Virus record (IMG/VR): IMGVR_UViG_3300025137_000158
Span: 1 to 32,275 of that record
Strand: one strand, 5' to 3'
Length of the DNA: 32,275 nt
From: a virus
Shown in pieces: positions 5,501 to 27,362 of the stretch. Below the pieces are notes generated by a model. The model was not told where the DNA came from. It made no database searches and saw only the letters and a program-made list of their open reading frames with translations. Numbering within the stretch: the first letter of the stretch is position 1; each line of letters begins with the position of its first letter. Made by a program: the position numbers and the translations under genes.

Positions 5501-6037
5501 AACCCGCTGAAATCATTATCAGATCAGATAATCTACCATCCTGTGAAATACAAAATACTTTTTGGTGCAAATGCAGAAGAAGAATTACAGGCAACATTTA
5601 AGATTGTCAAAAATCCAAAAACAAACATCTCAGATGCTGTGATCAAAACAAGGGTCGTAGCCGCTATAAATGAATTTTTTGCCTTGGACAACTGGGATTT
5701 TGGAGATACTTTTTACTTTACAGAACTAACCGCCTACATACACAATCAACTAGCACCAGACTTACTGACTGCTGTGATTGTCCCCAATCAATCAGGACAG
5801 AGTTTTGGGTCTCTGTTCCAGGTAGATTCAGCGGCGGACGAAATTTTCATCAGTGGGGCCACCGTTGATGATGTGACAACCATAACAGCACTTGGGGCCA
5901 ACCAATTGGCGGCATCAGGATCTGTGGTCACATCAACGTCAACTGCCACAACCAACACCACAACAGGATCAGCAGTGTCAGGCTCTACTACAACAGGTTC
6001 CGGTTCAAGTACCGGCAGTAGTGGGTCAGGATACTAA
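2555..6037 (+). CDS. gp6: Baseplate wedge protein, T4 gp6-like, enlarged
   Basis: In T4, gp6 forms the continuous ring of the inner baseplate and rearranges when the sheath contracts. The first 120 residues carry the marine T4-like gp6 signature: DWRKIYQAFQQADFKSYDFE, then EDFNDFVESSEYVALIDLIA in near form, then NARENFLETAERR. The product has 1160 residues against 660 in T4, so about 500 residues are added, mostly beta-rich. Residues 813-824 match an EF-hand calcium loop (DDDDDGVVDNPE). The last 50 residues or so are a serine/threonine/glycine low-complexity tail ending in SGSGY. The final TAC-TAA codons overlap the next ATG by one base, and an AGGA inside the last codons serves that next gene as a ribosome binding site. 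A short leader follows the late promoter box. I am confident of the family; the role of the extra domains is unknown. Confidence 0.9.
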   Translation: MATTDRQNRLLVAEDWRKIYQAFQQADFKSYDFETLRRTMVAYLQENYPDDFNDFVESSEYVALIDLIAYISQALSFRVDLNARENFLETAERRNSVLRLARLINYNAKRNQPATGMLKIDSISTSQDVTDSTGTNLANSTIIWNDSANANYREQFTAILNAANQTGQLFGNPRESGTIGGIDTEVYTLSSNQLDLPIFKFQKAIGGISRSFEIVPSTITGSESIYESDPIPGAGLTYTYRTDGSGDSSNNTGFFFLFKQGTMQNQEFTVDTSVTNYVKNVDSSNINNSDVWLYKLDQFGQLAEEWTKVPSLSGNNAIYNSLSKTERNTYNVVTKNNDTVDLVFGDGNFSNIPLGSFRTYYRVSDNAKYAIQSSDMQNVELTVPYTDVNGAQQALSMSISLKASVYNSAATESNDNIKEKASQVYYSQNRMITAEDYQVVPLSASQEIVKVRSVNRSASGISRAKEILDPTGAYSNVNVFAEDGILYREESTQQFTFTWNNKSDIQSTIDKSVEPKIKEAYARQFYYLKYDTKDVSTLTATWNSTTTSTNTNTGYFTSGGALVIGDFATSNLKFAKTGALVKFTSPDTRQFKNGTLVTAGTDEAEDRLWAKIGAVEGDGANGGTGNLESGVGPITLSNIVPQGAVINAIIPNLTTSFSTTLEADLLARIEAYEDFGLRYDVATETWKVITSTNLSTSSTFSLANTGSTAGTNADASWWFKFTNDGNTYTVQYRKLDYIFESESQNKFHYDVEEKIYDYKTGKSVKDTVSILKTNSIVSTGNSIGYPIKWQVTDVVTEIDGFRDNRRVKVGFFDDDDDGVVDNPEIFDIFVEPTVSESTKFVFFEKYTSYDNIERYRPYAATNFVVSENETDINLNTSTYTDGQLFYFYSQDEDVIKTYSSTTNTLATSTDYLARKGRSSINFQYKHHAGQETRIDPSVSNIVDVYLLERTYDNLYRIWLQDEGTKPSVSTSDQLRINYSGALNPLKSLSDQIIYHPVKYKILFGANAEEELQATFKIVKNPKTNISDAVIKTRVVAAINEFFALDNWDFGDTFYFTELTAYIHNQLAPDLLTAVIVPNQSGQSFGSLFQVDSAADEIFISGATVDDVTTITALGANQLAASGSVVTSTSTATTNTTTGSAVSGSTTTGSGSSTGSSGSGY

Positions 6038-12000: not shown

Positions 12001-15000
12001 ACGCCAGATCACAAAACTGTGATCATAGACTACGATGGCAACGTTGGATTCATACCTGGACTAGAGGATGGATCTACAGCGGACAGTTACGGAAACGTTT
12101 ACAAATTTATTTCGGTTAGGTTGAATTCGATGGACAACGTCAATGACCTTTTACAATTTGATGAATACGTTGACAAAAACGTTTCGATAGGCCAGGAGGG
12201 CGACAAGGTTTTTGCAGACGCAGACAGTTCAGGTTTATGGAGAGTGTATGAGAAGCAAGATCCTTACACTTCTACTTTAGTACTGTCACCAGACTCCAGC
12301 ACAGCAGAACAGGAATTCGGACATAGGATAGTTGCTCGTAACGATGGAAGAACAGTTGTTGCATCTGCTCCAGGAAAAGCACAAGGCGAGGTGCACTTCC
12401 TATTCAGGTCGTCAACAGAAGCAGGCACTGCCTTACAGACCCAGGCAACAGTAACAATGACTGAAAACGATGACAACACCAGCAGACTTGGAGAATCGTT
12501 GTCGATGAGTACAGATGAAAACTTTGTGGTTGCAGGAGCACCTTACACCAACACTATAGGATCGGATGGAAGCACAAGGTTCAATGATTCAGGATTGGTC
12601 AAACTTTATCTATGGGATCCAAGTTCATTTAGGTACGGAATATTAAACACAATAAGTCCGCCCGTAGATGCGGCATCACAGAATTTTGGTTGGGCACACA
12701 AAGTATCAGAACCAGGCACGTCTTCGGTAAGGGCCACACCTGACAAATACTTGTTTGTGTCTGCCCCCGGACACACTAGTGACACAGGTAGGGTGTACAT
12801 GTACACTTGGGGAATAGGTGCAGATGGTTCCACTTATGACAGTTGGACACAGGACTACACTATAGAAGCGCCGGATGGTGGATCAGGACAGAGATTTGGA
12901 CACAGGATAGCCGCAAACGACAACGGTGACATCCTTGCAGTGAGTTCGGTTGCACCAGGAAACGCTGGTAAGGTGGAGATATTCATAAAGACATCACAAA
13001 GCAACGACGGAAGCACACAAAATTCATTTGCACTTGCCCAGACACTGACTGGAGTGGCCAGTGACGGTTCAACAGTAAACACAAAATTTGGTGATGCAAT
13101 AGCAATGAGCAAAGACGGTACAACACTTATAATCGGGGCACCTGGTGTTGACGGTACAACAGATCCTGATGCAGGTGCAATTTATTACTACAAGTGGAAT
13201 GCCGATGATTCAACAAACACTTACACATTACAACAGACAATAAGTGCTCCAAGTTCACATACCAACATGAAATTTGGAACCAGCATTGATTGTAACCATG
13301 ATGGGTCGAGGCTTATTATAGGTGCTGAAAATTTTGCGAGCTCGAGAGAAATGAAATTTGACAGTGGTGAAACAACATTTGATCTTCAAGACACAAACTT
13401 TGTTGATAATAACACGGGTTCAGGCGGTGCATTTACGGCCACTATGTATAATACCAAGTATGTGGTTGATGACAGATTGATGGGCAACAATGTAAATGAG
13501 AACGACGACTTTGCACGAGGTGTGTGCGTAGTGGACAACACAGTGCTGGTGGGAGCACCAAAGGATGACGGAAATGCGGGATCGGATGGAAGCACGAAAA
13601 TTACAAATGACGGAACGGTATTATGCTCTGACCTTACAAAAAATGGCGATTATGCTTGGAGTAACTTGGTAACTGAAACTGCATTTATCGACATAGAAAA
13701 ATTAGGCAAGGTTTTTGAATTCAGCAGTCGGACAAAACAGTTACAAGATTACTATGACTTATATGATCCTGTAAAAGGCAGAATCCTTGGAATAGCAGAC
13801 AGAGAGATCAACATCAAGACATCTTGGGATCCTGCTCACTACAATTTTGGCGCCAATGCAAACAGCAAGACTCATTGGGCAGAGGAACACCTGGGAGAAG
13901 TTTGGTGGGATCTGTCTAAAGTAAAATGGCTGTGGTACGAACAGGATACACAAGAATATAAAACTAACCACTGGGGACAGATATTCCCTGGTTCCAGCAT
14001 CGACATTTACGAATGGGTTGAATCAAGATTGCTTCCAAGTCAAAACACTAATGGAACTGCTCTCCACGGAGATGATTCTCAGTACACAGTGGTACAAACG
14101 TATGATTCTAAATTGGACACTTTTGTAAATGTGTATTACTACTGGTTAAAAGACCTGACAAGTATTCCAAGCAACAGTGTTGTGACTAGAAAAAACACAG
14201 TGGGATTTGTTGCCAACCTGATCAGCAATCCGAAACTCTTCGGCATGAAATACTACGCAGTGAGTGACACAAATAAATTAATTCTTAACAATGTTAAGGG
14301 ACTTAACAAATCAGAAATAGTTTTGAATATAGATATAAGATCGAACACGTTCGGTGGTGACTCACACAGTGTCTGGAAACTAGCACGTGAGGGAGATAAG
14401 GACTACAGACCAGGAGCGTACCTCGAGACAAGATGGTGGGATTCGTTGATCGGTAAAAATACTGCAGGCGACTTAGTGCCTGACCTCAATTTGCCTGTGA
14501 ACGAAAGATACGGTAACAACATCAGACCAAGACAGAGTTGGTATGTTGATAGGTATTCATCCCTTAAAGAAATAATCGATTACGCAAATAGTGTGTTGCT
14601 GAAATATCAATTGGTGGGACAATTCAACTTAGACAATCTTGACGCCAAAGATCCAGAGCCCACAGCACAGAGCCTGGAGTGGGACGGTTCGGTAGACACA
14701 TACGCTGAACTGACCTACATCAACACAGCGGATCTGTCTGGTAATGTGAACTACCTAGTGAAAGCAGACGAGACTGCGAACAATTACTGGGCAATATACC
14801 AATGGACCGGCACAGAATGGTCGAGGACAAGACTGCAAACATACAACACATCAGCCTATTGGAGTTACGTTGACTGGTATGGCACAGATCCAGATATACA
14901 CGAAATGATACACAGCGAAAACACACCGATCGACAAGCAAGTAACATTTCAGTACGAACTAGACACATTGGATCTCGCAATAGGTAAACACGTGAAAGTG

Positions 15001-18000
15001 ACCAACGCAGACACAGGTGGATGGAAATTGTTTATGAAAAATGCAGACGGGTGGATTAACGTCGGCACAGAGAATGGCACCATTAGATTAGCGACTACGC
15101 TTTATGATTATTCGCAAGACGCAACAGGATTTGCAGGACAGGACAACTTTGATGATAATTTCTTCGACCAAGAACCTGCAACAGAAACACGAAATATTTT
15201 GACTGCATTGAGGGATGATCTATTCATCAATGACCTTGCAGGTGAGTACAACACATTATTCTTTACAGGTCTAAGGAGTGTGCTTTCAGAACAAACTTAC
15301 GTAGATTGGATGTTCAAAACTTCATTCGTCAATGTTACAAACTCTGTAAGGAAATTAGATCAGAGGAAAACTTACACCAGCGGGACCGACAGTTGGATAG
15401 AAAGTTACATCAACGAAGTTAAACCTTTCCATACAAAATTAAGGGAGTACAAACTAGGATACACAAACACAGAAACGCAAGACGGTATATACACAGACTT
15501 TGACAATCCTCCGTTCTATGACGAATCCACAGGCAAGATAAGATCTTTAAGCATCCAAGGCGACTCGAGCAAACTGTCAGAGTACCCATGGCAGATGTGG
15601 CACGATTACTACAGTAAACACGTTCAGTCTATCACTGTGTACCATGGAGGTTCAGGATACGAAACACCACCTACTGTGTCTATCACAGTTGATGATTCAT
15701 CTACCGAAACTGCGGCGACTGCCACAGCGATCGTGCAGGATGGTGTTGTTACAAAAATTACTGTCACAGGAATAGGTTCAAACTACATCAAGACTCCAAC
15801 GGTTGTTCTGACAGGCGGCAAGGCCGACGGCTCTGCGCCATCAGACCCTGCCAAAGCATATGCTAACCTGAACAACGATCTAGTAAGAGAGTTCGACACC
15901 ACTATTAAATTTGATAGAGTCTCAAGCACTTCACAGGTAGTGGACTGGACGGCCAGCACTGCATACGCATACAACGATTTAATCAGACACAGCAATCAGT
16001 TGTACAAGGTAACAAATGCATTCACGTCAAGCACAGATTTCGATGACAACATCGGAAGCGTATACAAAATATATGGAAATGAAACTGGATTGACAGCGGC
16101 AGACAGGACCAAAGGTTTTTACACACCTGGATCCAACATGCCAGGCAACGAACTTGATCAGGTAATGACAGGCGTTGACTATGGCGGAACAATGGTTACA
16201 GGGCTTTTGTTCTCGCAAGAAGCAGGTTGGGACAAAGCGGGCTGGTATGATTTTCCATGGGACAATTATGGAGACTCAAGGGTCAAAGCCTTTAGGGCAG
16301 ATGGTTCTACTGCTTCATACACTTTTGATTCTGCACCAGCAAGTACAGAAGTATACCAAGTCTATCTTACACAAGATGACAGCACAAGGAGAAAACTTTC
16401 AGACGTAATCAACGGAGACGGTTCAACGGCAACATTTAGCATTAGTGAAACGCCAGAAGAAAATGCATTGGTAGAATTTATCCCATTTGATGATGACGGT
16501 GTATTGACACCAACAGATGACAGGACGCTGGACTCAATAGTAAAAGGTGGACTGTTCACATCAGCACTCGGACACGCACCAAGTGATATACTTTTAGAGG
16601 GAGATGATTTCGTGTCACCAGACACAAGTTACGCTCCTGAAGAGACTGTGCCAGGGCAACTATTTGACACACTGGACATCAAGGTATACACATCTCCAGA
16701 GTCAGGGGTGCCATTCATAAGTGAAAAGAATTACAGAGGTGACGGAACTACAACAATCTTCAGTATCGGTGACTTCCCGGGATCACTTGGGTCGGTGACT
16801 GTCGCTGTAGACGGAACAGTTAAGAAACTTACAACAGATTACACGATAAATGTTGGTAACAAAACAATTACATTTGGAACAGCACCAGCCAACCACACTG
16901 TGATATCAACCAAAGTTTTTGCCATATCAGGTGAGAACTACAGGGTTTTGAACACTTACACTGGTGATGGAAGCACAACGGCATATTTGACATCAACAAG
17001 AGGTGAGTTCAACCTAGATTCAACAACATCAGACATCTATGTTACTGTGGACGGTGTGCCGACAACTTCGTACACAACTACTAACACTGCAAACACAATT
17101 ACGGTTGTGTTCAACTCCGCTCCAGCGGCAAGTTCTTTTATACAGATAGCAGGCTTCAACAAGACAACAACTTCGACAAGGAGTTTTGCCAGTGTGAGAA
17201 ATGAGGTTATCACGTATGATGGATCTACAAACAGATACACTTTGACATATCCGCCCGGAGCAATAGGACCACTTTCTGGTTTGACGCTGATAGAATTGAA
17301 TGGAAAAATGTTGCGTGGCCCAGACATAAGTTACTATCTAGGTGACGGCACCACTACAAGATTCTTGTTTAATAATTTGACCGGGATAGGTGAGGATTCC
17401 TCGTGGACAAACGAATTAGGTGAAGACTCGACAGTAGATCCTTCCAAAACGATAACAAGTGCATCGCAGATACAGGTCCATAAAAATGGAGTGCTACAGA
17501 CTCTCAGCACAGACTACACTGTTGATTTGGCAGGTGTTTCAACAACAGCAGACTCATCATTGTCAACGGCAGACACCACTTCTATAACCACAGACGTGGC
17601 AGGAAATCCTGACAGAATAAGTTTCACAACAGCGCCTTCGGCCAACGATGTCATTGCAATTACTACATTGGTGGACTACCAGTACTACAACGAGGGCACA
17701 GACATTATTTTAGATCCTGCTGAATTGACCGCAGATGGAAATCCAATTTCATTGAATGATAAACTTTCCGTTACTACTATTAACAATGCACTTGGTACTA
17801 AATTTAGACGTGAGACCTTGGCAGGAAGCACAAGATCAGCGGCATACCCTAATGCAACAGAAGGAAAATTCCATTTAAGATTTGATACTTTAAATGCTGG
17901 TTACACATTTGTTTGGCTAAACGGTGTCCAACTAATACAGGGATATGATTACACTGTAACCAAAAATGTTATTACTGTTGTTGGAAGAACAATAGCAACA

Positions 18001-18723
18001 ACAGACAGATTAGATGTGCTTTACTTTGCACTTGACTCGGCGACCAGTGCAACAGGATTTAGAATCTTCAAAGATATGTTGAATAGAACTTTCTATAAAC
18101 GTATTAGCAAAACCTCAACCACAAAATTAACAATAGACATGACAGCAGGAATTCAGGAGATGACTGTTGAAGACGCAACACTGTTGCCTTCACCAAACGC
18201 ATCTGCAAATGTTCCTGGAGTTGTGTTTGTTGACAAAGAGAGAATAGAATACTTTACAAAATCAGGTAACACGTTGGGACAACTTAGACGTGGAACACTT
18301 GGAACAGGAATTAAGGAGCATGGATCAGGCACTGAAGTGGTAGATGCGTCTGGTACTCAAACCATCCCTTATGCGGACACTGTGTACACCAACACCTTTA
18401 CAGGTGACGGTAGCACGGCTACGTTTACACTATCACAAGCACCATCATCCGCTAGTGAGTTAGACATATTCATTGGTGGCCAACGATTGTTGCTCACTAG
18501 CGAGGATGGATCAACTATAAACTATTCTGTGGACGGAAGCACCACTGCTGTTACTTTAAGCACAGTACCTGCTTCAGGCACACAGATCAAGATATTACAC
18601 AAGAAAGGACAGGTCTGGTACACGGCACAAGATGGTAATCCAGCAGATGGTAAAGGATTACAGGCTTCAACTACTCAACAGGCTAAATTCATTGCTAATG
18701 AGCCTACAAACGCACCTGAATAA
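6037..18723 (+). CDS. Giant multidomain virion structural protein (4228 residues), baseplate/tail associated
   Basis: This single frame fills 12.7 kb right after gp6, the slot of T4 gene 7, but its length (T4 gp7 is 1032 residues) and domains do not let me assign gp7. Visible parts in order are: an N-terminal region with HLPAFYRTDANQKF; a cupredoxin-like domain at 204-284; a region with WSRYNRWFH and AKRPIIEFD; a HQHEGPLLPAIFNL segment; a KLGMYPKFTPETF and RDDLILELEKRIYNN segment; a WRRSSSYPF and ALTKPAKFF segment; a W-Y-Y-type sugar-binding-like motif near 11002-11121; a seven-blade FG-GAP-like propeller at about 2091-2538; a GSGYETPPTVSI-type repeat; and several G-D-G-S/T beta repeats up to the end. 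I recall several of these segments from large structural proteins of marine T4-like phages. I see no signal peptide or membrane segment. It starts by one-base overlap with gp6, with AGGA five bases upstream. A wedge, rim or fibre-anchoring role is inferred from position only. Confidence 0.8.
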   Translation: MADNPTNSLTNNEVVKQGTNEYRRTVQHLPAFYRTDANQKFLASTMDPLVQKGSLERLDGFIGRQDAYTREVTDRYLPATSRDRVAYQLEPTVTYTTRDTVSVNPEDQVKFTGTYDDYINQIKYFGGKVNNHDRLNKETVYSWNPAIDYDKLVNYREYYWMPSGPGSIEIDTVGPSAVVEYSVENLLKGAYNFTHRENENNPELKLYRGNTYKFNVNARGHPFYIMTEPYKDGSTNLFYTSGVTNAGADEGTVTFVVPTDAPDILYYQCGNHDAMYGILQIKTASSTTEINVEDDIVGVKNYSLRTLNLSNGMKIKFKNYNVASAYQDKEYYVEGVGDAITLTDVDDLITPGSYATETTVLYDTVGYDSRPYAKSFYTPDSKDYITIKRDSLDHNAWSRYNRWFHRSVIEATADVSGFTPSLDEDDRAKRPIIEFDSGLALYNHGTVAKRSVTVFDTVTTDAFSDVVGQAGYIIDGITLSQGMRAVFAADTDSIVKNKIYEVNFVTAGDSTQVINLTEASDATPANDESIFIEFGTVNQGKTFYYDSTTEKYEDAQQKTGVNQQPLFAMFDESHTSFADPTAYPNSTFAGAKVFEFATSDSATEDTVLGIKVKYNTINNVGDIVFESDHTSGTFTYKSGTTTVTKNLAEGHLHYTTGRATHNSRSAWIKRTTESKQRVIRTFIVDAKEKKLFPIDFYKDSAELTDIEQSVSVNGIRKTLTTDYTIVNGTKNKYIKFNEDQEVNDQIRIAGSSSADKVADKGIYEIPENLSTNALNAALGTFTYGQVLNHVRDILDKNQELTGAVPGVSNLRDKPDARLKGGSIHQHEGPLLPAIFNLIDQESNFVTAVEHVSQEYEKWYNAFLTNATGTAYEGVASDRVDEIITAITPGRNSSFPFYYEDMLGWGENVSTRTYTVLGSSQVDYALDSQHDITTLSNRAVYVYLNDTQLLLGTDYTFSTTDDSINITKTLAEGDKIVIKDYADTTGSYMPPSPTKLGMYPKFTPETFTDTTYITDTAVIRKHDGSIIKAYGDERDDLILELEKRIYNNLKTSYDATLVDINDVVPSAFKTTEYTTTEINDVMGTDFYKWAGRNNVQYINNTAFTEGSPFTYNFARSTDKLTGEKMAGHWRGVYKHFYDTDAPHIRPWEMFGHSEKPTDWEATYGAAPYTSGNSVLWNAIATETGRYGKPGIESYLPVDASGNLLDPLAAGLVLQYDIPGRQNAWKFGDHAPAETSWRRSSSYPFSVIKVLALTKPAKFFSNLFDPSRLSTNISGNQIDSDTSVRRTLANAKYHLETSTDNNTGVTTKYLTAGYQPIIVNYLISRNLNPKTFYYDKMKGITVQLGYKLGGFTDKDNIKVLTDSVSPGSTSGSKFIPDENYKILFRTSNPVNSFYYSGVLVERNTDVSRDGSTLLGGFKVLGYSTAKPYFNFNYPIKATTSNAISVPGSVRVEQYSTFRETTQTIPYGHVFNTIQDVTDFLFGYGHWLESQGFRFNKFSNELKETLNWRNAVREFLFWTTQEWASGSAITVSPAADGFELDTNNSIVGKLRNLAGDYSLLDSGGRKIDIKEVSTKRIGKTFELGIKSDSVGLYNVALNTVQKEHMLLFDNKTVFSDIIYEPFTGFRQQRLKLVGWKTGGWNGDYYAPGFVFDSAQVTYWVANTDYRLGDSVEYQGKFYVAKINHNSYSKFDSSNWTLKDSKPSPQLIPNFDYKISQFNDFYELETNNFDESQQQLAQRLIGYQSRDYLENLFVNDVSQYKFYQGYIREKGTQNAIDKILKAKYEGEDITLDMYPEWMIRTGNFGNTDSIENIQIILKDDEISSNPQSIELLDNSNDTKEYARSEGIVKDDFYYTPVEYTASTTFKRLDYTKQGVSRDTAQVFKTAGYPQLTQVQHTFFNIADVTGLDVNALNKNDLIWFANKSNNDWDVVRLTNIKITIENINLINDSTQLEITFSGSHNLTAGTTSTQADYFAISNSEEETLNGVYQVQATPDHKTVIIDYDGNVGFIPGLEDGSTADSYGNVYKFISVRLNSMDNVNDLLQFDEYVDKNVSIGQEGDKVFADADSSGLWRVYEKQDPYTSTLVLSPDSSTAEQEFGHRIVARNDGRTVVASAPGKAQGEVHFLFRSSTEAGTALQTQATVTMTENDDNTSRLGESLSMSTDENFVVAGAPYTNTIGSDGSTRFNDSGLVKLYLWDPSSFRYGILNTISPPVDAASQNFGWAHKVSEPGTSSVRATPDKYLFVSAPGHTSDTGRVYMYTWGIGADGSTYDSWTQDYTIEAPDGGSGQRFGHRIAANDNGDILAVSSVAPGNAGKVEIFIKTSQSNDGSTQNSFALAQTLTGVASDGSTVNTKFGDAIAMSKDGTTLIIGAPGVDGTTDPDAGAIYYYKWNADDSTNTYTLQQTISAPSSHTNMKFGTSIDCNHDGSRLIIGAENFASSREMKFDSGETTFDLQDTNFVDNNTGSGGAFTATMYNTKYVVDDRLMGNNVNENDDFARGVCVVDNTVLVGAPKDDGNAGSDGSTKITNDGTVLCSDLTKNGDYAWSNLVTETAFIDIEKLGKVFEFSSRTKQLQDYYDLYDPVKGRILGIADREINIKTSWDPAHYNFGANANSKTHWAEEHLGEVWWDLSKVKWLWYEQDTQEYKTNHWGQIFPGSSIDIYEWVESRLLPSQNTNGTALHGDDSQYTVVQTYDSKLDTFVNVYYYWLKDLTSIPSNSVVTRKNTVGFVANLISNPKLFGMKYYAVSDTNKLILNNVKGLNKSEIVLNIDIRSNTFGGDSHSVWKLAREGDKDYRPGAYLETRWWDSLIGKNTAGDLVPDLNLPVNERYGNNIRPRQSWYVDRYSSLKEIIDYANSVLLKYQLVGQFNLDNLDAKDPEPTAQSLEWDGSVDTYAELTYINTADLSGNVNYLVKADETANNYWAIYQWTGTEWSRTRLQTYNTSAYWSYVDWYGTDPDIHEMIHSENTPIDKQVTFQYELDTLDLAIGKHVKVTNADTGGWKLFMKNADGWINVGTENGTIRLATTLYDYSQDATGFAGQDNFDDNFFDQEPATETRNILTALRDDLFINDLAGEYNTLFFTGLRSVLSEQTYVDWMFKTSFVNVTNSVRKLDQRKTYTSGTDSWIESYINEVKPFHTKLREYKLGYTNTETQDGIYTDFDNPPFYDESTGKIRSLSIQGDSSKLSEYPWQMWHDYYSKHVQSITVYHGGSGYETPPTVSITVDDSSTETAATATAIVQDGVVTKITVTGIGSNYIKTPTVVLTGGKADGSAPSDPAKAYANLNNDLVREFDTTIKFDRVSSTSQVVDWTASTAYAYNDLIRHSNQLYKVTNAFTSSTDFDDNIGSVYKIYGNETGLTAADRTKGFYTPGSNMPGNELDQVMTGVDYGGTMVTGLLFSQEAGWDKAGWYDFPWDNYGDSRVKAFRADGSTASYTFDSAPASTEVYQVYLTQDDSTRRKLSDVINGDGSTATFSISETPEENALVEFIPFDDDGVLTPTDDRTLDSIVKGGLFTSALGHAPSDILLEGDDFVSPDTSYAPEETVPGQLFDTLDIKVYTSPESGVPFISEKNYRGDGTTTIFSIGDFPGSLGSVTVAVDGTVKKLTTDYTINVGNKTITFGTAPANHTVISTKVFAISGENYRVLNTYTGDGSTTAYLTSTRGEFNLDSTTSDIYVTVDGVPTTSYTTTNTANTITVVFNSAPAASSFIQIAGFNKTTTSTRSFASVRNEVITYDGSTNRYTLTYPPGAIGPLSGLTLIELNGKMLRGPDISYYLGDGTTTRFLFNNLTGIGEDSSWTNELGEDSTVDPSKTITSASQIQVHKNGVLQTLSTDYTVDLAGVSTTADSSLSTADTTSITTDVAGNPDRISFTTAPSANDVIAITTLVDYQYYNEGTDIILDPAELTADGNPISLNDKLSVTTINNALGTKFRRETLAGSTRSAAYPNATEGKFHLRFDTLNAGYTFVWLNGVQLIQGYDYTVTKNVITVVGRTIATTDRLDVLYFALDSATSATGFRIFKDMLNRTFYKRISKTSTTKLTIDMTAGIQEMTVEDATLLPSPNASANVPGVVFVDKERIEYFTKSGNTLGQLRRGTLGTGIKEHGSGTEVVDASGTQTIPYADTVYTNTFTGDGSTATFTLSQAPSSASELDIFIGGQRLLLTSEDGSTINYSVDGSTTAVTLSTVPASGTQIKILHKKGQVWYTAQDGNPADGKGLQASTTQQAKFIANEPTNAPE
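6646..6888 (+). other. Cupredoxin-like domain inside the giant structural protein
   Basis: Residues about 204-284 begin LKLYRGNTYKFNVNARGHPF, continue with a GTVTFVVPTDAPDILYYQC strand pair and end NHDAMYGILQI. The potential type 1 copper ligands are all present: His221, Cys269, His272 and Met275. The C-x2-H-x2-M spacing is the one found in amicyanin-type cupredoxins. Copper binding is inferred from these residues; a purely structural use of the fold is also possible. Confidence 0.7.
12307..13650 (+). repeat. Seven FG-GAP-like propeller blades in the giant structural protein
   Basis: Seven segments share the pattern F/L-G at the start, a D/N-G turn, a V/I-x-x-A-P-type strand and then a G-x-V-Y/F strand. 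Examples are EFGHRIVARNDGRTVVASAPG, shortened here to its core RTVVASAPG, then NFVVAGAPYT, KYLFVSAPGH, DILAVSSVAPG, TTLIIGAPGV, SRLIIGAEN and NTVLVGAPKDD. This matches the FG-GAP repeats of integrin-alpha-type beta-propellers, which commonly have seven blades. The last two blades carry longer insertions. Binding to a partner protein or a surface sugar is a reasonable inference. Confidence 0.7.
16290..18630 (+). repeat. Series of G-D-G-S/T beta-repeat domains at the C-terminal end of the giant protein
   Basis: Units open with a short motif such as ADGSTASYTF, GDGSTATFSI, GDGTTTIFSI, GDGSTTAYLT, YDGSTNRYTL, GDGTTTRFLF and GDGSTATFTL. Most continue with a strand of the type V-x-V-D/N-G-x, then T/S-DYT, then F-x-x-A/V-P. 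Spacing is irregular, and one long segment with LRRGTLGTG interrupts the last two. They look like small immunoglobulin-like or stalk domains that arose by duplication. I cannot assign a known family name from the sequence alone. Confidence 0.6.
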
Positions 18724-18732: not shown

Positions 18733-19458
18733 ATGACACAGGACAATAAACCAATAGAATCAAAAAAAGAGAACAAGAAGCCTCAAGATAATACGGGTGT
18801 TATGATGACGGGACACATTAAGATTTTTGACCCAGAGACAGGCGAAGTAATAGTAGACAAAAGAAACGCAATACACTATGAAAACATGTCTCAGGCATTG
18901 GCAAATTCTTTAGCAAATAAGACTACAGGATTTGTACACGAAATGGCTTTCGGGAATGGAGGGACTTCAGTTGATCCAACAGGTATAATCACTTACCTTA
19001 CACCAAACTCTACAGGTACAAACGCCACGTTGTATAATCAAACATATTACAAAGTTATAGATGATAACTCTGCAACTAACAAAGACACAACCAGGAACAA
19101 AATGGAAGTGAGGCACACGGCAGGTAACAAGTACACCGACATAGTCTGCACTTGCACATTGGATTATGGTGAGCCTACAGGACAGGCGGCCTTTGACAAT
19201 ACTACAAACTTCAATGGTGATTTTGTTTTTGATGAGTTAGGATTGAAGAGCTATGAAGGATCAGAAAATGGTTCGACTAACAAGTTACTAACACACGTCG
19301 TATTTCACCCTGTACAAAAGTCCTTGAACAGATTGATACAGATTGACTACACATTAAGAATACAAAGTTTAACAACATTCACTGAGACAAGTTCAACTGC
19401 ACTGTCAACTTCTAATACGGTAAGTGGAACTACGTCAGGTGGTAACACAGGATACTAA
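18733..19458 (+). CDS. Conserved virion structural protein of T4-like marine phages
   Basis: This 241-residue protein starts with a polar, lysine-rich stretch, followed by TGHIKIFDPETGEVIVDKRN, AIHYENMSQALANSL and FGNGG segments that I associate with a structural protein next to the baseplate genes of marine T4-like phages. The middle and end are beta-rich (YTDIVCTCTLDYGEP, QIDYTLRIQSL). The last 30 residues are a serine/threonine/glycine tail ending in NTGY. It does not resemble T4 gp8, which would be the next gene by T4 order. The start lies nine bases after the giant gene and directly after a late promoter-like box. Its stop overlaps the next ATG by one base, with AGGA embedded in the last codons. 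The exact place in the virion is unknown. Confidence 0.72.
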   Translation: MTQDNKPIESKKENKKPQDNTGVMMTGHIKIFDPETGEVIVDKRNAIHYENMSQALANSLANKTTGFVHEMAFGNGGTSVDPTGIITYLTPNSTGTNATLYNQTYYKVIDDNSATNKDTTRNKMEVRHTAGNKYTDIVCTCTLDYGEPTGQAAFDNTTNFNGDFVFDELGLKSYEGSENGSTNKLLTHVVFHPVQKSLNRLIQIDYTLRIQSLTTFTETSSTALSTSNTVSGTTSGGNTGY

Positions 19459-20954
19459 TGTCATACACTGTAAACAAGACCAATAGTTCGGCGTCGCCCA
19501 ATTCATACACTGTACAGGATGGCGTAGTAAATTCACAGACCGATCTTTCATTTATAGGAAAGGGATATGCAGGTTATGGAGAAAGCATTGCAGAAAACTT
19601 TTTACATTTATTAGAAAACTTTTCAAACACTTCTGCACCTACAAAACCTATCAGTGGACAACTTTGGTATGATGCTACAAATAACAGACTTAAAGTTTAC
19701 TCAGGTTCAGCGTTTGTTCCTGCAGGAGGAAACGTACCTTATGAGTCAATAGCACCAAGTTCACTTACACGGGGAGATCTATGGATCGATTCAGACACAG
19801 GACAACTTTATTTCTATGACGGAGCGTCTTCTATACTTGTTGGACCACCAAGTTCTACAGGTACAACAAACGGATTCACGTTTGACGCTATATTTGATTC
19901 TGCAGATGTAACACAGAACATAACCAAGTTGTTCAATGACGGAAACCTTATTGCAATAATTTCAGAAGACACTTTCACTCCAAAATCAACACTGACTGGT
20001 TTTGCAAGTGTTAAAAAGGGTATAACTTTAAGCACAGCAATTTCAGACTTAAAATTCCAAGGAACGGCAACTGACGCAGATGCACTAGGCGGCGTAGCGG
20101 CGGCCAACTACCTCACATCAAACGCCAACGACACCACATCAGGCACGTTATCTGTGGCCAACGATGGTGGAGTCATTGTTGGAACAGACAGTGACATAAC
20201 AATCACAGTTGACTCATCGGGTGGTATAATATCTAACACTGTACAGGATACGGATATAACTTTCAAAGTGAATGATGCTGGGACCACAGTAACAGTGATG
20301 ACCATTGATGGTTCTGAATCCAATGTTGGAATAGGAACTACCACACCAAGCACAAAATTACAAGTGTCAGGCACAACGACATCAACTGCGTTTGCAGGCC
20401 CAATTACAGGAGATGTAACAGGAAACGTAACAAGTTCTGGTGCAAACACAATGGGAACTTTGGTATTGGCTGACAAATTGACCACACAAGAAATAGAGCC
20501 AGATGCAAATACAACTTACGACATAGGAACAACCAGTAAAAAATACAACACAGTACACGCAAAAGCGACGTCGGCCCAATACGCTGACTTGGCTGAGATA
20601 TACGAATCTGACTCTACGTATGATGTAGGAACAGTGATGATATTTGGCGGCGACAAAGAAGTAACACAATCAACTATTTCAAATGACACAAGAGTGGCAG
20701 GCGTAATAAGTGAAGATCCTGCATATTTGATGAACAGTGATTCAGATGGTCAGGCTGTTGCACTTGTAGGAAAAGTAAAATGTAAAGTGCATGGTGTTGT
20801 TACAAAAGGCGATCTTCTAACCACTTGCGGTTCACATCCAGGTTGTGCCCAAAAGGCAATCACTCCTGAATTAGGATCTGTGGTAGGTAAAGCAATGGAA
20901 GATAAAACAGACGCCGGACAAAGTGCTATTTTAATAAGTGTAGGAAGATTGTAA
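19458..20954 (+). CDS. Tail-fibre-like structural protein, paralog A
   Basis: This 498-residue protein is one of three paralogs here. The first 130 residues or so hold the shared N-terminal module: LSFIGKGYAGYGESIAENFL, a LLENFSNTSAPTKP segment, then two copies of a G-x-L-W-Y/I-D and Y-x-G-S-A/S repeat. The middle is beta-rich and repetitive, including DALGGVAAANYLTSNAND and GPITGDVTGNVTSSGANT, as in trimeric phage fibres. The last 125 residues form a separate domain that opens SAQYADLAEIYESD and contains GTVMIFGG and VAGVISEDPAYLMNSD. Similar C-terminal domains occur on phage fibres, and some such fibre end domains cleave themselves. The ATG overlaps the previous stop by one base. A fibre or fibre-connector role at the baseplate is inferred. 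Confidence 0.75.
   Translation: MSYTVNKTNSSASPNSYTVQDGVVNSQTDLSFIGKGYAGYGESIAENFLHLLENFSNTSAPTKPISGQLWYDATNNRLKVYSGSAFVPAGGNVPYESIAPSSLTRGDLWIDSDTGQLYFYDGASSILVGPPSSTGTTNGFTFDAIFDSADVTQNITKLFNDGNLIAIISEDTFTPKSTLTGFASVKKGITLSTAISDLKFQGTATDADALGGVAAANYLTSNANDTTSGTLSVANDGGVIVGTDSDITITVDSSGGIISNTVQDTDITFKVNDAGTTVTVMTIDGSESNVGIGTTTPSTKLQVSGTTTSTAFAGPITGDVTGNVTSSGANTMGTLVLADKLTTQEIEPDANTTYDIGTTSKKYNTVHAKATSAQYADLAEIYESDSTYDVGTVMIFGGDKEVTQSTISNDTRVAGVISEDPAYLMNSDSDGQAVALVGKVKCKVHGVVTKGDLLTTCGSHPGCAQKAITPELGSVVGKAMEDKTDAGQSAILISVGRL
20091..20113 (+). repeat. 23-base segment identical to 26388-26410
   Basis: Beginning GGCGTAGCGGCGGCCAAC, this segment encodes part of the DALGGVAAANYL motif of fibre paralog A. 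It recurs base for base in paralog C at 26388-26410, although the flanks differ at several third codon positions. It could act as a site for recombination between the two genes. Confidence 0.85.
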
Positions 20955-22426: not shown

Positions 22427-23854
22427 ATGCCCACATTAACCAGAACATTTAACTACACAGGCACACTACAACAAGCAGTGGTCCCAGCAGGCACAACTTC
22501 AATAGATGTGCACCTATGGGGTGGCGCTGGAGGCGGAGGAGGATCAGACGCAGGTGGACCTGGAGGTATAGGAGCCGCGGGACAGCATGTAACATCATCC
22601 ACAATCTCTATGTCATCACAAAGAGGCAAGACACTTACGGTGGCAGTTGGTGGTGGTGGAGCCGGCGGGGTACAAGGTGGATCAGCACCGGGTGGAGCAA
22701 ACGGAAAAAGTATTGCAGGATACTCAGGCGGAGAAGGCGGTAACGCTGGACCAGGAGGATACTCAGGATCAGGCGGAGGTGGCGGAGGAGCCACTACGGT
22801 CCTTGCAGATGGAGCCGAGATTGCCACAGCAGGAGGCGGTGGAGGTGGTGCCGGAGCAGGTGTGGCATCAAACGGTACAGCAGGTGACAACGGACACTCA
22901 GCAACAGGAGAATCACCAGGCACACTTGGTGAGAACGGTAAGGATCACGCCGGCGACGGTGGTGGTGGAGGTGCTGGTGGCGGAGGTACTGATGGTGGAG
23001 CGTCAGGTAATGCAGGGTCAGGAGACAACGGCGGTACGGGTGGTAAGTCAGGATCAAACACAGCGGCAGGTGGCACAGCGAGCAACGGCTCAGGAGTCAC
23101 GCCAGGAGGAACAGATAATGCTTTTTACAGTGCAGGAGTTGCCGTTGGTGGACAACCAAGTAATTCAGGTGCTGATGGTAAGGCAGTAGTAGTATTCAAT
23201 ATGGGTGTGCAGGCAGAGTTTAAAGTTGGCGGAGCATGGAAAGACATAGGTGAGGCCTTTTTTAAAGTTGGTGGAGCGTGGAAACAGCTCACAGAAGGCT
23301 ACGTAAAAATAGGCGGTGCATGGAAGGCTTTATTCAATTCAGGTATAACATTTACTGAGACTGCCGCAGGTTTTGGAGACGCAGAAGGTGGATCAAGTTC
23401 AGGAAGTGGTGGAACTGGAGGTGGTGGTTGTTTCATGGCAGGCACAATGATAACAATGGCAGATGGCACTTTCAAAGCGGTTGAGACAGTGGACATTGGT
23501 GATAAAGTTGCAGTGGGTGGCAAAGTTTTTGCAACTGGTAAGTTCTTAATAGACAATTTATATGATTACAAAGGCATACAAGTTTCAGGTACCCACATGG
23601 TCAAAGAAGATGGCAGATGGACGAGAGTTGAAAACAGCATACATGGAGTCTCTCTTGGTAACGAGGACGCGATTGTGTACGTGTTTGGATCTGAAAACAG
23701 AAGAATTATTATCAACGGAACAGAATTTACTGACTACTTCGAATTAAGCGAACAGCAGGAACTAATCAATCACGGCGAACAGATTTTTAGTAATTGGCAG
23801 GATCATGATAGACAAATTCATGATAAAAATGTTAATATACTGAATGCTTCATAA
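22427..23854 (+). CDS. Glycine-rich adhesin-like tail protein with a C-terminal Hint (hedgehog/intein) domain
   Basis: This 475-residue protein has four parts. Residues 1-30 are beta-like (TRTFNYTGTLQQAVVPAGTT). Residues 31-250 are extremely glycine-rich with GG and GGX runs, like the polyglycine receptor-binding tips of phage adhesins such as T2/S16 gp38. Residues 265-306 are three tandem 14-residue repeats of the F-K-V-G-G-A-W-K type. Residues 335 to about 440 form a Hint domain: C335-F-x-A-G-T start, MADGTFKAVETVDIGDKV, then SGTHMV with His390, then NRRIIINGTEFTDYFEL. No terminal His-Asn and following extein is seen, so cleavage rather than splicing is expected. A clear AGGGAGG site lies at 22411-22417, ten bases before the ATG. 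Its end overlaps the oxygenase gene by 11 bases. The Hint call is strong; the receptor-binding role is inferred from context and composition. Confidence 0.82.
   Translation: MPTLTRTFNYTGTLQQAVVPAGTTSIDVHLWGGAGGGGGSDAGGPGGIGAAGQHVTSSTISMSSQRGKTLTVAVGGGGAGGVQGGSAPGGANGKSIAGYSGGEGGNAGPGGYSGSGGGGGGATTVLADGAEIATAGGGGGGAGAGVASNGTAGDNGHSATGESPGTLGENGKDHAGDGGGGGAGGGGTDGGASGNAGSGDNGGTGGKSGSNTAAGGTASNGSGVTPGGTDNAFYSAGVAVGGQPSNSGADGKAVVVFNMGVQAEFKVGGAWKDIGEAFFKVGGAWKQLTEGYVKIGGAWKALFNSGITFTETAAGFGDAEGGSSSGSGGTGGGGCFMAGTMITMADGTFKAVETVDIGDKVAVGGKVFATGKFLIDNLYDYKGIQVSGTHMVKEDGRWTRVENSIHGVSLGNEDAIVYVFGSENRRIIINGTEFTDYFELSEQQELINHGEQIFSNWQDHDRQIHDKNVNILNAS
23219..23344 (+). repeat. Three tandem 42-base repeats (G-G-A-W-K units)
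   Basis: The three units encode FKVGGAWKDIGEAF, FKVGGAWKQLTEGY and VKIGGAWKALFNSG. The DNA has diverged at third codon positions while K-x-G-G-A-W-K is kept, so the amino-acid repeat is under selection. The units link the glycine-rich part to the Hint domain and may form stacked beta-hairpins at a trimer axis. Confidence 0.85.
23429..23746 (+). other. Hint (hedgehog/intein) autoprocessing domain
   Basis: The domain starts at Cys335, directly after a GGGG linker, which is the standard place of the nucleophile. It keeps the GT-x-I-x-MADGT block, the GD-x-V block and a G-T-H block with His390. In Hint domains the Cys attacks the preceding peptide bond to form a thioester, so the break would fall between Gly334 and Cys335. 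Self-cleavage is predicted, not shown. Confidence 0.8.
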
Positions 23855-24512
23855 CAGTTTTTACCACGGCGAACAAGGACAGTGTTTTCGACAGTTCGAG
23901 AAACACTGGGAAAACATCAAGTATGAGTTTGATACACAGCCAAATAAAACATTCCTTCAGCCCGAAGACTTTTCAGACAGCGTAAGGGGAATGCCAGAGG
24001 ACTTTGATGATAGGTCAGGTGACTATGTCCATGGAGAATGGCAGGCGTTGGGAATACAATCAGGAGATAAAGAACTTCAAGACTTCAACGATTATCCAAT
24101 GCTCTACTCGATACTTAGGAAATTTCCTTATAAAACAAATGTTGCAATTATGACAGTAGGCTCAGACACTAAAATTGGTAATCACACCGACGACGAAGGT
24201 GGTTGGAGATACCAAATGTGCCTCGACGACGGAGGTGGAGACGAAAGTGGCATGCATGTGATGAACTTAGACAGTAACAAGCAGGAACTAATGACATGGT
24301 CAACAGGCAAAGCGTTTGTGTTCCAGCCGGACCTACAATTACACAACGGATTCAACAAAAATCCTGGTCCTAGAACCACGTTATTAATTGACTTTTGGAA
24401 AGAATCAGCGTACACTAAAGATAAATTTGTAAATTATTACCAACACTATTCGGAGTGCTTTGAGGGTTTGGATAATTTAGTGGAAACGTATGAATCAAGA
24501 AAACAAAAATAA
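23844..24512 (+). CDS. Fe(II)/2-oxoglutarate oxygenase, aspartyl/asparaginyl beta-hydroxylase-like
   Basis: This 222-residue protein has the jelly-roll metal site of the family. NHTDDEGGWRYQM gives His114 and Asp116. The segment from FVFQPDLQLHNGFN to PRTTLLIDFW gives the distal His167 and the 2-oxoglutarate-binding Arg177. The spacing and the closing LLIDFW strand resemble the C-terminal core of aspartyl/asparaginyl beta-hydroxylases. Such enzymes hydroxylate protein side chains or small molecules using O2 and 2-oxoglutarate. The ATG lies inside the end of the Hint gene (11-base overlap), with no strong ribosome binding site, so translational coupling is likely. Its own end overlaps the dehydrogenase start by 23 bases. 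The substrate is unknown; the preceding glycine-rich adhesin is a candidate by context only. Confidence 0.75.
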   Translation: MLHNSFYHGEQGQCFRQFEKHWENIKYEFDTQPNKTFLQPEDFSDSVRGMPEDFDDRSGDYVHGEWQALGIQSGDKELQDFNDYPMLYSILRKFPYKTNVAIMTVGSDTKIGNHTDDEGGWRYQMCLDDGGGDESGMHVMNLDSNKQELMTWSTGKAFVFQPDLQLHNGFNKNPGPRTTLLIDFWKESAYTKDKFVNYYQHYSECFEGLDNLVETYESRKQK

Positions 24513-25077
24513 AATTGCAATTATAGGCCACACAAAGGGGATTGGCAAAGCAATAGCAGACATCTATAAAACAAAAAAGTACACAGTGATAGGTCTCAGC
24601 AGGAGCAATGGATATGATCTATTGACTGACCAAGAAAAGATAATGGAGCAGATACAAGATTGTCACCTTGTTGTGATAAATGCCAATGCCGGAGTAGGAC
24701 AAATGCAACTTCTCAAAAGGATATACGGTAAGCATTCTTTCAACGCCATGAAGGTTGCAGTGATTACAAGCACGTCTGGAACAGAAGAAGGCCAAGATGC
24801 AAATGAATTTAAAATATGGAATAAGTTTGAATACGTTCAATACTGCGAGTCAAAAAAAGAGTTAATAGCATACATCAATGACCTACAGGTCGAACTTTTA
24901 AGAAAGCCATTGTCCGTTTATGACGTGTGTCCTGATGTCGTTGATACTGACATGACAAAAGGTTTATGGAAACATTTACCAAAACTAGATCCGAAGGAAG
25001 TGGCAGAAGCAGTGCTTTTTTGTTTTGAATCAACATTTAACGTCAACAAGATTGTGATACAAAAAAATGAAGATTAG
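24490..25077 (+). CDS. Short-chain dehydrogenase/reductase (SDR), short form
   Basis: This 195-residue protein shows the classical SDR order. The nucleotide-binding loop is GHTKGIGKAIA (residues 13-23), a variant of T-G-x3-G-x-G. An NANAG motif lies at 64-68. The catalytic serine lies in ITSTSG (about 92-97), and Y118-x3-K122 is in YCESK. The segment PDVVDTDMTKG follows as expected after the active site. Typical family members have about 250 residues, so loops are trimmed here. These enzymes reduce or oxidise hydroxyl/keto groups with NAD(P). The start overlaps the oxygenase gene by 23 bases and the end overlaps the GNAT-like gene by 11. Whether it works on sugars, lipids or a protein modification cannot be told. 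Confidence 0.8.
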   Translation: MNQENKNKIAIIGHTKGIGKAIADIYKTKKYTVIGLSRSNGYDLLTDQEKIMEQIQDCHLVVINANAGVGQMQLLKRIYGKHSFNAMKVAVITSTSGTEEGQDANEFKIWNKFEYVQYCESKKELIAYINDLQVELLRKPLSVYDVCPDVVDTDMTKGLWKHLPKLDPKEVAEAVLFCFESTFNVNKIVIQKNED

Positions 25078-25531
25078 GCCTTGGGATAGAGACAAAGATT
25101 ATGACACACTTGTACAATGGTGGAACCAATGGGAGTTTGGTGTGGTTCCAAAGGAGTGCCTGCCACCCGATGGAGTGATAGTTGAGGATAGCGATATGCC
25201 TGTTTGTGCTGGGGGACTGTATGTGTGTGATGGAACCGCATTTGGACTAATGGAATGGCTGGTGACCGATAAAAATGCAAAACCACGTATTGTACACAAA
25301 TGTCTAAAACAGTGCATTGACTCGATAATGGAACTGGCAAAGACAAAAAAGTTGAAGTTGGTGTACACTGCTACAAAACAACAAGCACTCCACAAAAGAT
25401 ATACAAAATACCACAATATGGTGCTTACGGAAAGCAACTTGAAGGCATTCGTAAGGGATCTAGATGGGGCGTACACAAAGGATTTAACCTGGATATCAGA
25501 TGATGAGCAGATAGAATCACGTAATAAATAA
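25067..25531 (+). CDS. GNAT-like acetyltransferase fold protein
   Basis: This 154-residue protein begins with KIRPWDRDKDYDTLVQWWNQ, the usual first strand and helix of GNAT proteins, followed by PKECLPPDGVIVED and a strand pair CAGGLYVCDGTAFGLMEWLV. It matches in outline the small GNAT-like proteins of marine phages. The acetyl-CoA loop R/Q-x2-G-x-G/A is not evident: at its expected place the sequence reads KPRIVHKCL. It may therefore use a modified loop or be inactive as an acetyltransferase. It overlaps the SDR gene by 11 bases and is the last of four overlapping genes. I am moderately sure of the fold and unsure of any activity. Confidence 0.55.
   Translation: MKIRPWDRDKDYDTLVQWWNQWEFGVVPKECLPPDGVIVEDSDMPVCAGGLYVCDGTAFGLMEWLVTDKNAKPRIVHKCLKQCIDSIMELAKTKKLKLVYTATKQQALHKRYTKYHNMVLTESNLKAFVRDLDGAYTKDLTWISDDEQIESRNK
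25523..25530 (+). promoter_or_regulatory. T4-type late promoter box plus Shine-Dalgarno site before the 60-residue gene
   Basis: AATAAATA overlaps the stop region of the GNAT-like gene. The ATG at 25551 is 20 bases away, and AAGGAG lies at 25537-25542. Unlike most other boxes in the window, this one leaves a short leader that keeps the ribosome binding site. It would give the third fibre paralog and the following gene their own late start. Confidence 0.6.
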
Positions 25532-25736: not shown

Positions 25737-27362
25737 ATGGCATACAAGATTAACAACACATTTGGAACTTTACTTGTTACCCTGGCAGACGGGACTATTG
25801 ACGTTGCAACCACAGACCTTACATTAATTGGAAAAGGATATGCAGGGTTCGGTGAGAAACTTAATGAGAACCTTGTCAAATTATTAGAGAATTTCAACAA
25901 CACATCTGCACCATCAAAGAAAATACAAGGTCAGTTGTGGTATGACAAGACGAACAATCAACTGAACGTCTACACAGGATCAAAATTTAAACCAGTTGGA
26001 TCAACATCTAACTCAGCATCTGCACCAACAAACGCAGTGCTGGGAGACATGTGGTTTGACACAACCAACACACAACTTTACGTCTACACAGGGTCTGCAT
26101 GGACGCTGATTGGTCCAACCACAGTGGCAGGTTCAGGAGTGACACAGGTAGTAACAGAGACCCCGGAAGACAACACAGGTGTAAGGAGATCAATTCTTAA
26201 ACTAGTTGCCAATGACACAACTGTTGGTGTAGTTTCTAACATTGCATTCACGCCAAGCTCATCGGAAACATTGGGAGCGGCATTAGTAACAGCAGGTTTC
26301 TCATCCATAGCACAAGGATTACAACTTTCAAGCACGGTATCATCTGTTAAATTCAGAGGTACGGCAACAGACTCAGATGCACTTGGTGGCGTAGCGGCGG
26401 CCAACTACCTGAGGTCCAATGCTAACGACACATCAACAGGTTCTCTTGGGGTCTTGAATGACACAGGACTAACAATTGGTGCAGGATCAGACATCACAAT
26501 GAGTTTGTCCAGTGATGATTTTACTATTGCACAAACTACGCAAGACAAAGACATCATATTCACAGTCAACGATGGCGGAACTACCGTTGAAGCATTAAGA
26601 ATCAAAGGATCAACAGGCAGGATCGAACACTTAAGAGTTGGAGACCTTACTGTCGACGGCACCAACACGGTACTCAACACCACAACACTGTCGGTGGAGG
26701 ACAACATCATCGAATTGAACAGGGGGATATCCAGTAATGCTGGTATGCCTAGTTTCACAGGCCTAAAAGTAAACAGAGGCGAAACATCAACTGCTACGGA
26801 ACAGAACCTATACTGGGTATGGGACGAGACATTTGCGGATGACGGCACGACCATACACGGAAACGCAGGCGGTGCCTGGACAGCATTCAAGTCGGGAGGC
26901 GGAGACGAAATGTCTGCACCAACGTTGGTTGATATGAGAGCGAACATAGTACATGCAACATCAACATCGGCTCAGTACGCGGATTTGGCGGAAAGATACG
27001 CATCAGATGTGCAACTATCTATAGGTGAAGTTGTTATATTGGGCGGATCAGAAGAGATAACAAGATGTGATACTGAATTGAGTGACAAGGTTTTTGGAGT
27101 AGTCAGCGAAAGTCCAGCATTTTTAATGAACGCTTCAGCAGGAAACAACGACTCACACCCAATGGTGGCACTAAAAGGACGGGTGCTAGTGGCCTTAAAA
27201 GGCAAAGGAACAGCAGGCGACAGGATTGTTTCAGCAGGCGGAGGCGAGGCACGTGTCGCAACTTTAGACGAGTGCAACCATTTCAACGTTCTTGGGCGTT
27301 TAGTTAAAGATAAATATAATGAAGAAACAGCACTCACAGAGTGCGTTATAGGAGTTAAGTAG
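25737..27362 (+). CDS. Tail-fibre-like structural protein, paralog C
   Basis: This 541-residue protein has the N-terminal module of paralogs A and B: LTLIGKGYAGFGEKLNENLV, LLENFNNTSAPSKKIQGQLW, then repeats ending VYTGSKFKPVG and VYTGSAWTLIGP. The middle carries DALGGVAAANYLRSNANDTS, as in A, and a segment LNTTTLSVEDNIIELNRGIS typical of phage fibre and adhesin proteins. The C-terminal domain begins SAQYADLAERYASD and contains GEVVILGG and VFGVVSESPAFLMNAS, again as in A. No Shine-Dalgarno site is seen right before the ATG, only three bases after the small gene, so coupling is likely. It lies about 3.3 kb from paralog B, separated by the Hint/oxygenase/SDR/GNAT block. Confidence 0.75.
   Translation: MAYKINNTFGTLLVTLADGTIDVATTDLTLIGKGYAGFGEKLNENLVKLLENFNNTSAPSKKIQGQLWYDKTNNQLNVYTGSKFKPVGSTSNSASAPTNAVLGDMWFDTTNTQLYVYTGSAWTLIGPTTVAGSGVTQVVTETPEDNTGVRRSILKLVANDTTVGVVSNIAFTPSSSETLGAALVTAGFSSIAQGLQLSSTVSSVKFRGTATDSDALGGVAAANYLRSNANDTSTGSLGVLNDTGLTIGAGSDITMSLSSDDFTIAQTTQDKDIIFTVNDGGTTVEALRIKGSTGRIEHLRVGDLTVDGTNTVLNTTTLSVEDNIIELNRGISSNAGMPSFTGLKVNRGETSTATEQNLYWVWDETFADDGTTIHGNAGGAWTAFKSGGGDEMSAPTLVDMRANIVHATSTSAQYADLAERYASDVQLSIGEVVILGGSEEITRCDTELSDKVFGVVSESPAFLMNASAGNNDSHPMVALKGRVLVALKGKGTAGDRIVSAGGGEARVATLDECNHFNVLGRLVKDKYNEETALTECVIGVK
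26388..26410 (+). repeat. 23-base segment identical to 20091-20113
   Basis: This is the second copy of the exact shared segment. It encodes the same GVAAANYL part of the fibre motif in paralog C. The neighbouring codons differ between the copies, so this short block is more conserved at the DNA level than its surroundings. Confidence 0.85.

Follow-up and report, generated by a model that had tools for sequence, protein, structure and literature searches.

Hint domains are usually regarded as self-sufficient. The product of hedgehog processing is a cholesterol ester. Domains of the Hint superfamily are established to work by an N-to-S acyl shift at residue 1. Hedgehog proteins use this step alone, and bacterial intein-like (BIL) domains mainly cleave (PMC7664689). 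BIL2 joins the part N-terminal to it to lysine by an isopeptide bond, and it is switched by zinc acting on its block-B histidine (PMC8616854). PanD undergoes a backbone N-to-O acyl shift, and the GNAT-fold protein PanZ promotes it in a manner that depends on CoA (PMC4410942). In the literature, the phage Hint domains that we found were inteins in terminase or ribonucleotide reductase; we found no paper that pairs Hint with GNAT, or that places Hint in phage tail fibers. Here we describe a Hint domain at the end of a phage protein and a GNAT-fold gene that accompanies it, which suggest an undescribed two-part protein-processing system.

The viral record and the Hint protein

The window, by which we mean the entire stretch of DNA that was analyzed (32,275 nucleotides), is a viral record of 32 kb. 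Its baseplate wedge protein shares 32-36% identity with the counterparts in jumbo myophages, Atu_ph07 and Phosso among them, and gp5-like and gp25-like genes lie nearby, so the window is a fragment of a phage of the jumbo type with a contractile tail. From the phage relatives and the gene content, we infer a marine origin for the source viruses. Another open reading frame in the tail region (6037-18723; 4228 residues) served as a synteny marker.

The protein of interest is encoded by ORF 22427-23854, with an ATG at 22427 and a stop codon at 23854. It is laid out as follows.

22427..23854, + strand: glycine-rich tail/adhesin-like protein with a C-terminal Hint domain, 475 amino acids, with orthologs in about 40 viral contigs
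22427..23212, + strand: glycine-rich N-terminal region, residues 1-262
23219..23344, + strand: three 14-residue GGAWK repeats, residues 265-306
23384..23428, + strand: glycine/serine linker ending in GGGG; Gly334 is position -1 of the predicted scissile bond
23429..23431, + strand: Cys335, the predicted nucleophile (Hint Cys1)
23429..23782, + strand: Hint core, residues 335-452
23594..23596, + strand: His390, the block-B histidine of V-S-G-T-H
23783..23851, + strand: helical C-terminal tail, residues 453-475

The repeats, the GGGG linker and the arrangement around Cys335 are just as an earlier sequence-only reading had described them. PHROG 25859 matches the repeat region (residues 262-308, E = 1e-8). 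At Cys335 (CFMAGT), the protein begins CFMAGTMITMADGTFKAVETVDIGDKV and continues with VSGTHMVKEDGRWTRV, with the motif layout MADGT / GDKV / V-S-G-T-H. Tail-fiber-like genes surround the Hint gene, and together with the glycine-rich composition, they indicate that the carrier is probably a receptor-binding tail protein or adhesin, as had been proposed. We looked for a relative of the glycine-rich part among solved structures and found none.

Two of the neighboring fiber-like proteins match Peptidase_G2, an autoproteolytic chaperone domain (25737-27362, E = 5e-6; 19458-20954, E = 0.04). More than one type of self-processing may thus act in the tail locus of the window.

Identification of the Hint domain

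The sequence-only reading placed a Hint domain at the end of this protein and suggested a profile search and a structure prediction as checks. In the window protein itself, the Pfam models Hom_end_hint, Hint and Hint_2 match residues 332-363 only, and all of the matches fall below the curated cut-offs: the best reaches 20.5 bits where 32.1 are required. The Hint model gives E = 0.022 for the window domain, which is also below its cut-off and does not amount to a significant sequence relation to Hog, the hedgehog processing domain. On their own, these sub-threshold matches are suggestive of Hint but are not proof. For the family, however, the profile search did succeed: all 19 members of the first family alignment match Hom_end_hint (best E = 5e-5). 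When compared to the sequences in the PDB, the family profile matches intein block A of PI-SceI at E = 9e-4; a separate, weak match is to block B of NEQ068, the Neq pol intein (GITLSANHLV, E = 0.06).

The predicted structure gave the expected fold. Over the whole core, beginning at Cys335, the AlphaFold model has high confidence (pLDDT of about 92), and its best 50 PDB matches, as found by Foldseek, are all Hint-fold proteins. The top match is BIL2 of Tetrahymena (E = 4e-6, probability 1), followed by a class 3 split intein, Vint, and the gp41-1 and DnaB inteins, with hedgehog (1at0) lower down. The matches among viral structures include many proteins that are named Hint. Whole-chain TM-scores, mostly 0.3-0.5, are kept modest by the linker and the tail, which were part of the query. 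Besides the fold, the domain has the residue-1 nucleophile of the superfamily (Cys335) and its block-B TxxH motif, in the form SxxH or AxxH. These results confirm that the C-terminal part of the ORF is a terminal-type Hint domain that begins at Cys335, well beyond what chance would give.

The ORF ends in ...VNILNAS. It lacks the terminal His-Asn, the +1 nucleophile and the C-extein of a splicing intein, and we reject that assignment, in agreement with the earlier reading. Since Cys1 and the block-B histidine are kept while His-Asn and the C-extein are absent, the natural prediction is cleavage or transfer at Gly334-Cys335.

Conservation and selection

Close relatives are encoded at 40 viral loci, and a profile search gave 61 loci, many of them on the same contigs. 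All of the relatives are from uncultivated contigs. No named phage relative of the window Hint was found in 50,697 GenBank phage records, and a search of cellular genomes gave just one weak match of 27 residues. Across 97 distinct relatives, residue 1 is always cysteine and the block-B histidine is always present (97/97 each), and the residue before Cys1 is glycine in 95. Three residues before the histidine, serine is found in 90 of the 97 and alanine in the other 7. In a set of 42 adhesin sequences, the Hint core has a median dN/dS of 0.077, against 0.23 for the glycine-rich region and 0.33 for the linker. Such strong purifying selection, along with the invariant residues, is what one would expect of a working catalytic domain and not of a remnant.

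The last 66 or so bases of the Hint gene (23786-23851) show another kind of constraint: third-position conservation is 0.89, as compared to about 0.65 elsewhere. A signal in the DNA or RNA is therefore likely where the Hint gene meets the gene that follows.

Carriers of the Hint domain

Besides the glycine-rich adhesin, the Hint domain is found on a DUF4815 tail protein (L091), on a 1280-residue protein beside the portal gene (L206), on a protein encoded between terminase and portal (L224), and on a protein encoded between portal and the major head protein (L096). In 15 distinct cases, a classical Hint domain of 146 residues (Hint1, with TSEH and a C-terminal His-Asn) lies directly upstream of the window-type Hint, and the two are usually joined as HN-KG-Cys, that is, via Lys-Gly. 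These tandem loci involve three different carriers (L082, L084, L090, L101, L161, L166 and L211-L234). Hint1 also precedes quite different C-terminal tips, such as helical domains of the KIVCTMMN type.

Helical tips that follow a glycine linker and carry a cysteine motif (KIVCTMMN, RVICTELN or KVLCDYIY) were seen at L105, L106, L258, L265, L274 and L282; the tip at L105 has no match in Pfam. Because different tips occupy the same slot, the C-terminal tip of these carriers is exchangeable, with Hint plus GNAT as one of several alternatives. At L259, a protein with three Hint domains in a row has a SET-domain gene (4245-4694) immediately after it; the third Hint is a sister of the window type and is without a GNAT gene in the short flank covered.

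A GNAT-fold gene accompanies the Hint domain

The next genes downstream of the Hint domain in the window are as follows.

23844..24512, + strand: aspartyl/asparaginyl hydroxylase-like gene, overlapping the end of the Hint gene (Pfam Asp_Arg_Hydrox, E = 2e-10; synteny)
24490..25077, + strand: short-chain dehydrogenase-like gene (Pfam adh_short, E = 2e-9; synteny)
25067..25531, + strand: GNAT-fold partner gene of Hint, 154 amino acids (AlphaFold, PDB matches, linkage to Hint)

The first two genes accompany only the group of adhesins with a single Hint, in which the dehydrogenase-like gene sits between Hint and GNAT. The start codon of the hydroxylase-like gene lies within the last codons of the Hint gene, at the junction where the GNAT gene begins in other loci. 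The Hint and GNAT genes often overlap by 11 bases.

The AlphaFold model of the third product (pLDDT of 86) has 342 matches among PDB chains at E <= 1e-3. The matches listed are GNAT-type proteins, so this protein has the GNAT fold. Pfam does not recognize the family, apart from one weak match to one member. The acyl-CoA pyrophosphate loop, [QR]xxGx[GA], is found in 0 of 94 GNATs of the partner family, and Cys47, Lys110 and Tyr112 are invariant among the 94. With the fold but not the loop signature, the partner is possibly not an ordinary acetyltransferase, and acyl transfer or CoA-dependent control by it is not established.

Wherever the arrangement could be checked in a window-wide comparison, relatives of the GNAT gene lie 3' of Hint, and where the carrier is not related to the window protein, the locus has nothing in common with the window but Hint and the partner GNAT. 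A search with GNAT alone, which was blind to Hint, found 113 loci, with Hint upstream in 112; the one without Hint is truncated, as it starts at contig base 70. Deduplication left 105 distinct Hint genes. The GNAT gene lies downstream of 102, and in the remaining three cases the contig stops within 258-704 bases, which is too short for the Hint-GNAT arrangement. Conversely, Hint is upstream of 104 of 105 distinct GNATs, and again the exception starts at contig base 70.

As controls, the GNAT partner is absent from glycine-rich adhesins with other tips and without the window-type Hint (L105-L111) and from all 25 A-type Hint loci without the window-type Hint (within the fetched flank of at most 3 kb after the match). 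At least twice, in two adhesin lineages (L101/L166 and L084/L090), the GNAT has been exchanged for a relative with 38-40% identity next to Hint domains that are 85-87% identical. Thus, what is kept is a GNAT of that family and not one particular sequence. The mirror-tree correlation between Hint and GNAT is r = 0.59, which shared ancestry would also give, so we do not count it as proof.

Distant relatives of the partner GNAT, without Hint, adjoin structural genes in Bacteroidetes phages. In several of these (among L122-L127), the gene precedes that of a small protein rich in glycine and alanine, which recalls genes 12-13-14 of T7. As a lead, one member of the GNAT family also matches PHROG 308, the internal virion proteins of the T7 gp13 type (E = 0.0035).

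Proposed mechanism and alternatives

We propose that the window protein carries a terminal autoprocessing Hint domain, acting at Gly334-Cys335, together with a dedicated GNAT-fold partner, and we put the probability of this reading as a whole at roughly two in three. Self-cleavage like that of hedgehog or of B-type BIL domains is the likely chemistry, judging from the residues that are present. Cys335 would attack the carbonyl of Gly334 in an N-to-S acyl shift, aided by His390, to form a thioester. Water or another nucleophile would resolve the thioester, and the glycine-rich adhesin would be released or would be modified at its new C terminus. The GNAT-fold partner would most likely control or trigger the acyl shift, in the way that PanZ acts on PanD, or modify the product: both the gene linkage and the PanZ precedent suggest a trigger, a gate or a modifying partner. 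Several points count against this proposal: the Pfam scores below the gathering threshold, the replacement of the block-B threonine by serine or alanine, a sister Hint lineage (L251, L259 and L281) with no GNAT in its short flanks, the lack of the CoA-loop signature from all 94 GNATs, and a Foldseek comparison that does not single out PanZ. The sequence-only reading, which had envisaged trimming of the adhesin or attachment of its C terminus to another molecule, is in part supported; the GNAT-fold partner gene, the recurrence of the domain on several unrelated virion-type carriers, the tandem with a classical His-Asn Hint and the conserved helical tail go beyond it.

A terminal Hint that always comes with a GNAT gene, on unrelated carriers, points to a Hint domain that depends on a partner protein to control its chemistry or to complete it. 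More tentatively, the pair may be a two-component system of marine phages in which the GNAT gates the Hint thioester or supplies the nucleophile for it. Phages that are not related to one another would then give their adhesins and other virion proteins a controlled C-terminal cut, adduct or cross-link. The pair makes trimming or covalent modification of virion proteins by Hint chemistry directly testable, and it could provide a switchable tool for cleavage or ligation.

We weighed several other explanations. First, Hint might join the C terminus of the adhesin to a lysine of a virion protein, a small amine or a lipid, with the GNAT preparing or delivering the nucleophile. The precedents are the isopeptide bonds made by BIL2, the best structural match, and the cholesterol ester made by hedgehog. 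An extra helical tail follows the Hint core in the AlphaFold model (with low confidence at the end), in the place where hedgehog proteins keep a nucleophile-recognition region; for the window domain, a counterpart of the sterol/adduct recognition region of Hog would be putative. A linked GNAT-fold gene would fit a modifying role, as would the SET-domain gene after the related terminal Hint of L259. However, the GNAT lacks the CoA-loop signature, the acceptor is putative, and simple hydrolysis would be expected to leave the same sequence pattern. We consider joining to be rather unlikely.

Second, the Hint fold might be retained as a folded tip or binding domain that does not cleave, with the GNAT as a folding or assembly partner. 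This would suit the helical tips that are not Hint domains but fill the same slot, after a glycine linker, in the same carriers (L105, L106, L258 and L274), and also the GNAT homologs without Hint beside the structural genes of Bacteroidetes phages. But a purely structural domain would have no need of an invariant Cys1 and block-B histidine or of the nearly invariant glycine before Cys1, so we view this explanation as unlikely.

Third, the Hint-GNAT pair might be a mainly selfish cassette, moving by recombination to the 3' ends of genes for phage structural proteins. Its carriers are indeed unrelated, with settings that include jumbo myophages, a DUF4815 tail protein and the terminase/portal region, and the junction DNA is conserved beyond what the protein needs. 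Yet the pair comes without a nuclease or recombinase, and all 22 records that hold a full Hint domain have a single copy. A mainly selfish cassette is distinctly unlikely, and selfishness would not exclude a function in any case.

Finally, the terminal position and the missing His-Asn might suggest what is left of an intein or mini-intein that has decayed at the gene end, next to a GNAT that is there by accident, but we rule out decay given the dN/dS values and the invariant catalytic residues, and 97 distinct conserved copies on several carriers and the reciprocal linkage likewise make this very improbable.

Comparison with known systems

The window Hint resembles the BIL domains of types A and B, which are Hint domains that mostly cleave and seldom splice. 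Type A keeps a C-terminal His-Asn, which the window domain does not have, but the upstream Hint1 of the tandem relatives does. Block B in the intein NEQ068 has the same SxxH form as in the window. BIL2 (Tetrahymena BUBL1 locus; PDB 6y75 and 6tmm) shares the Hint fold, the N-terminal cysteine and the block-B histidine. However, it lies between two ubiquitin-like domains, ends in asparagine and has a downstream partner, whereas the window domain is terminal and lacks His-Asn.

For the partner, the nearest described proteins are those of PHROG 17252 and related proteins from Cellulophaga, Tenacibaculum and Flavobacterium phages, which are about 25-34% identical and are also encoded beside structural genes, but no Hint was found next to them. 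The PanZ/PanM-PanD system, in which PanZ triggers the self-cleavage of PanD, is the best precedent and resembles Hint-GNAT in that a GNAT-fold protein is dedicated to one partner that processes itself by an acyl shift. PanD is not a Hint protein, though, and PanZ binds CoA, whereas the GNATs of the window family lack the usual loop signature. In the Foldseek comparison of the partner, PanZ is at rank 36 among many GNATs and is not singled out. The gene linkage is observed; a PanZ-like maturation factor is an analogy.

The hedgehog Hog domain (PDB 1at0) has the same Gly-Cys-Phe junction and, like the window domain, is terminal, has no splicing residues and is followed by a helical region after the Hint core. 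The structural match between the two is weak (Foldseek E = 5e-3), and unlike Hog, the window domain has phage carriers of the virion type and an attached gene for a GNAT-fold protein.
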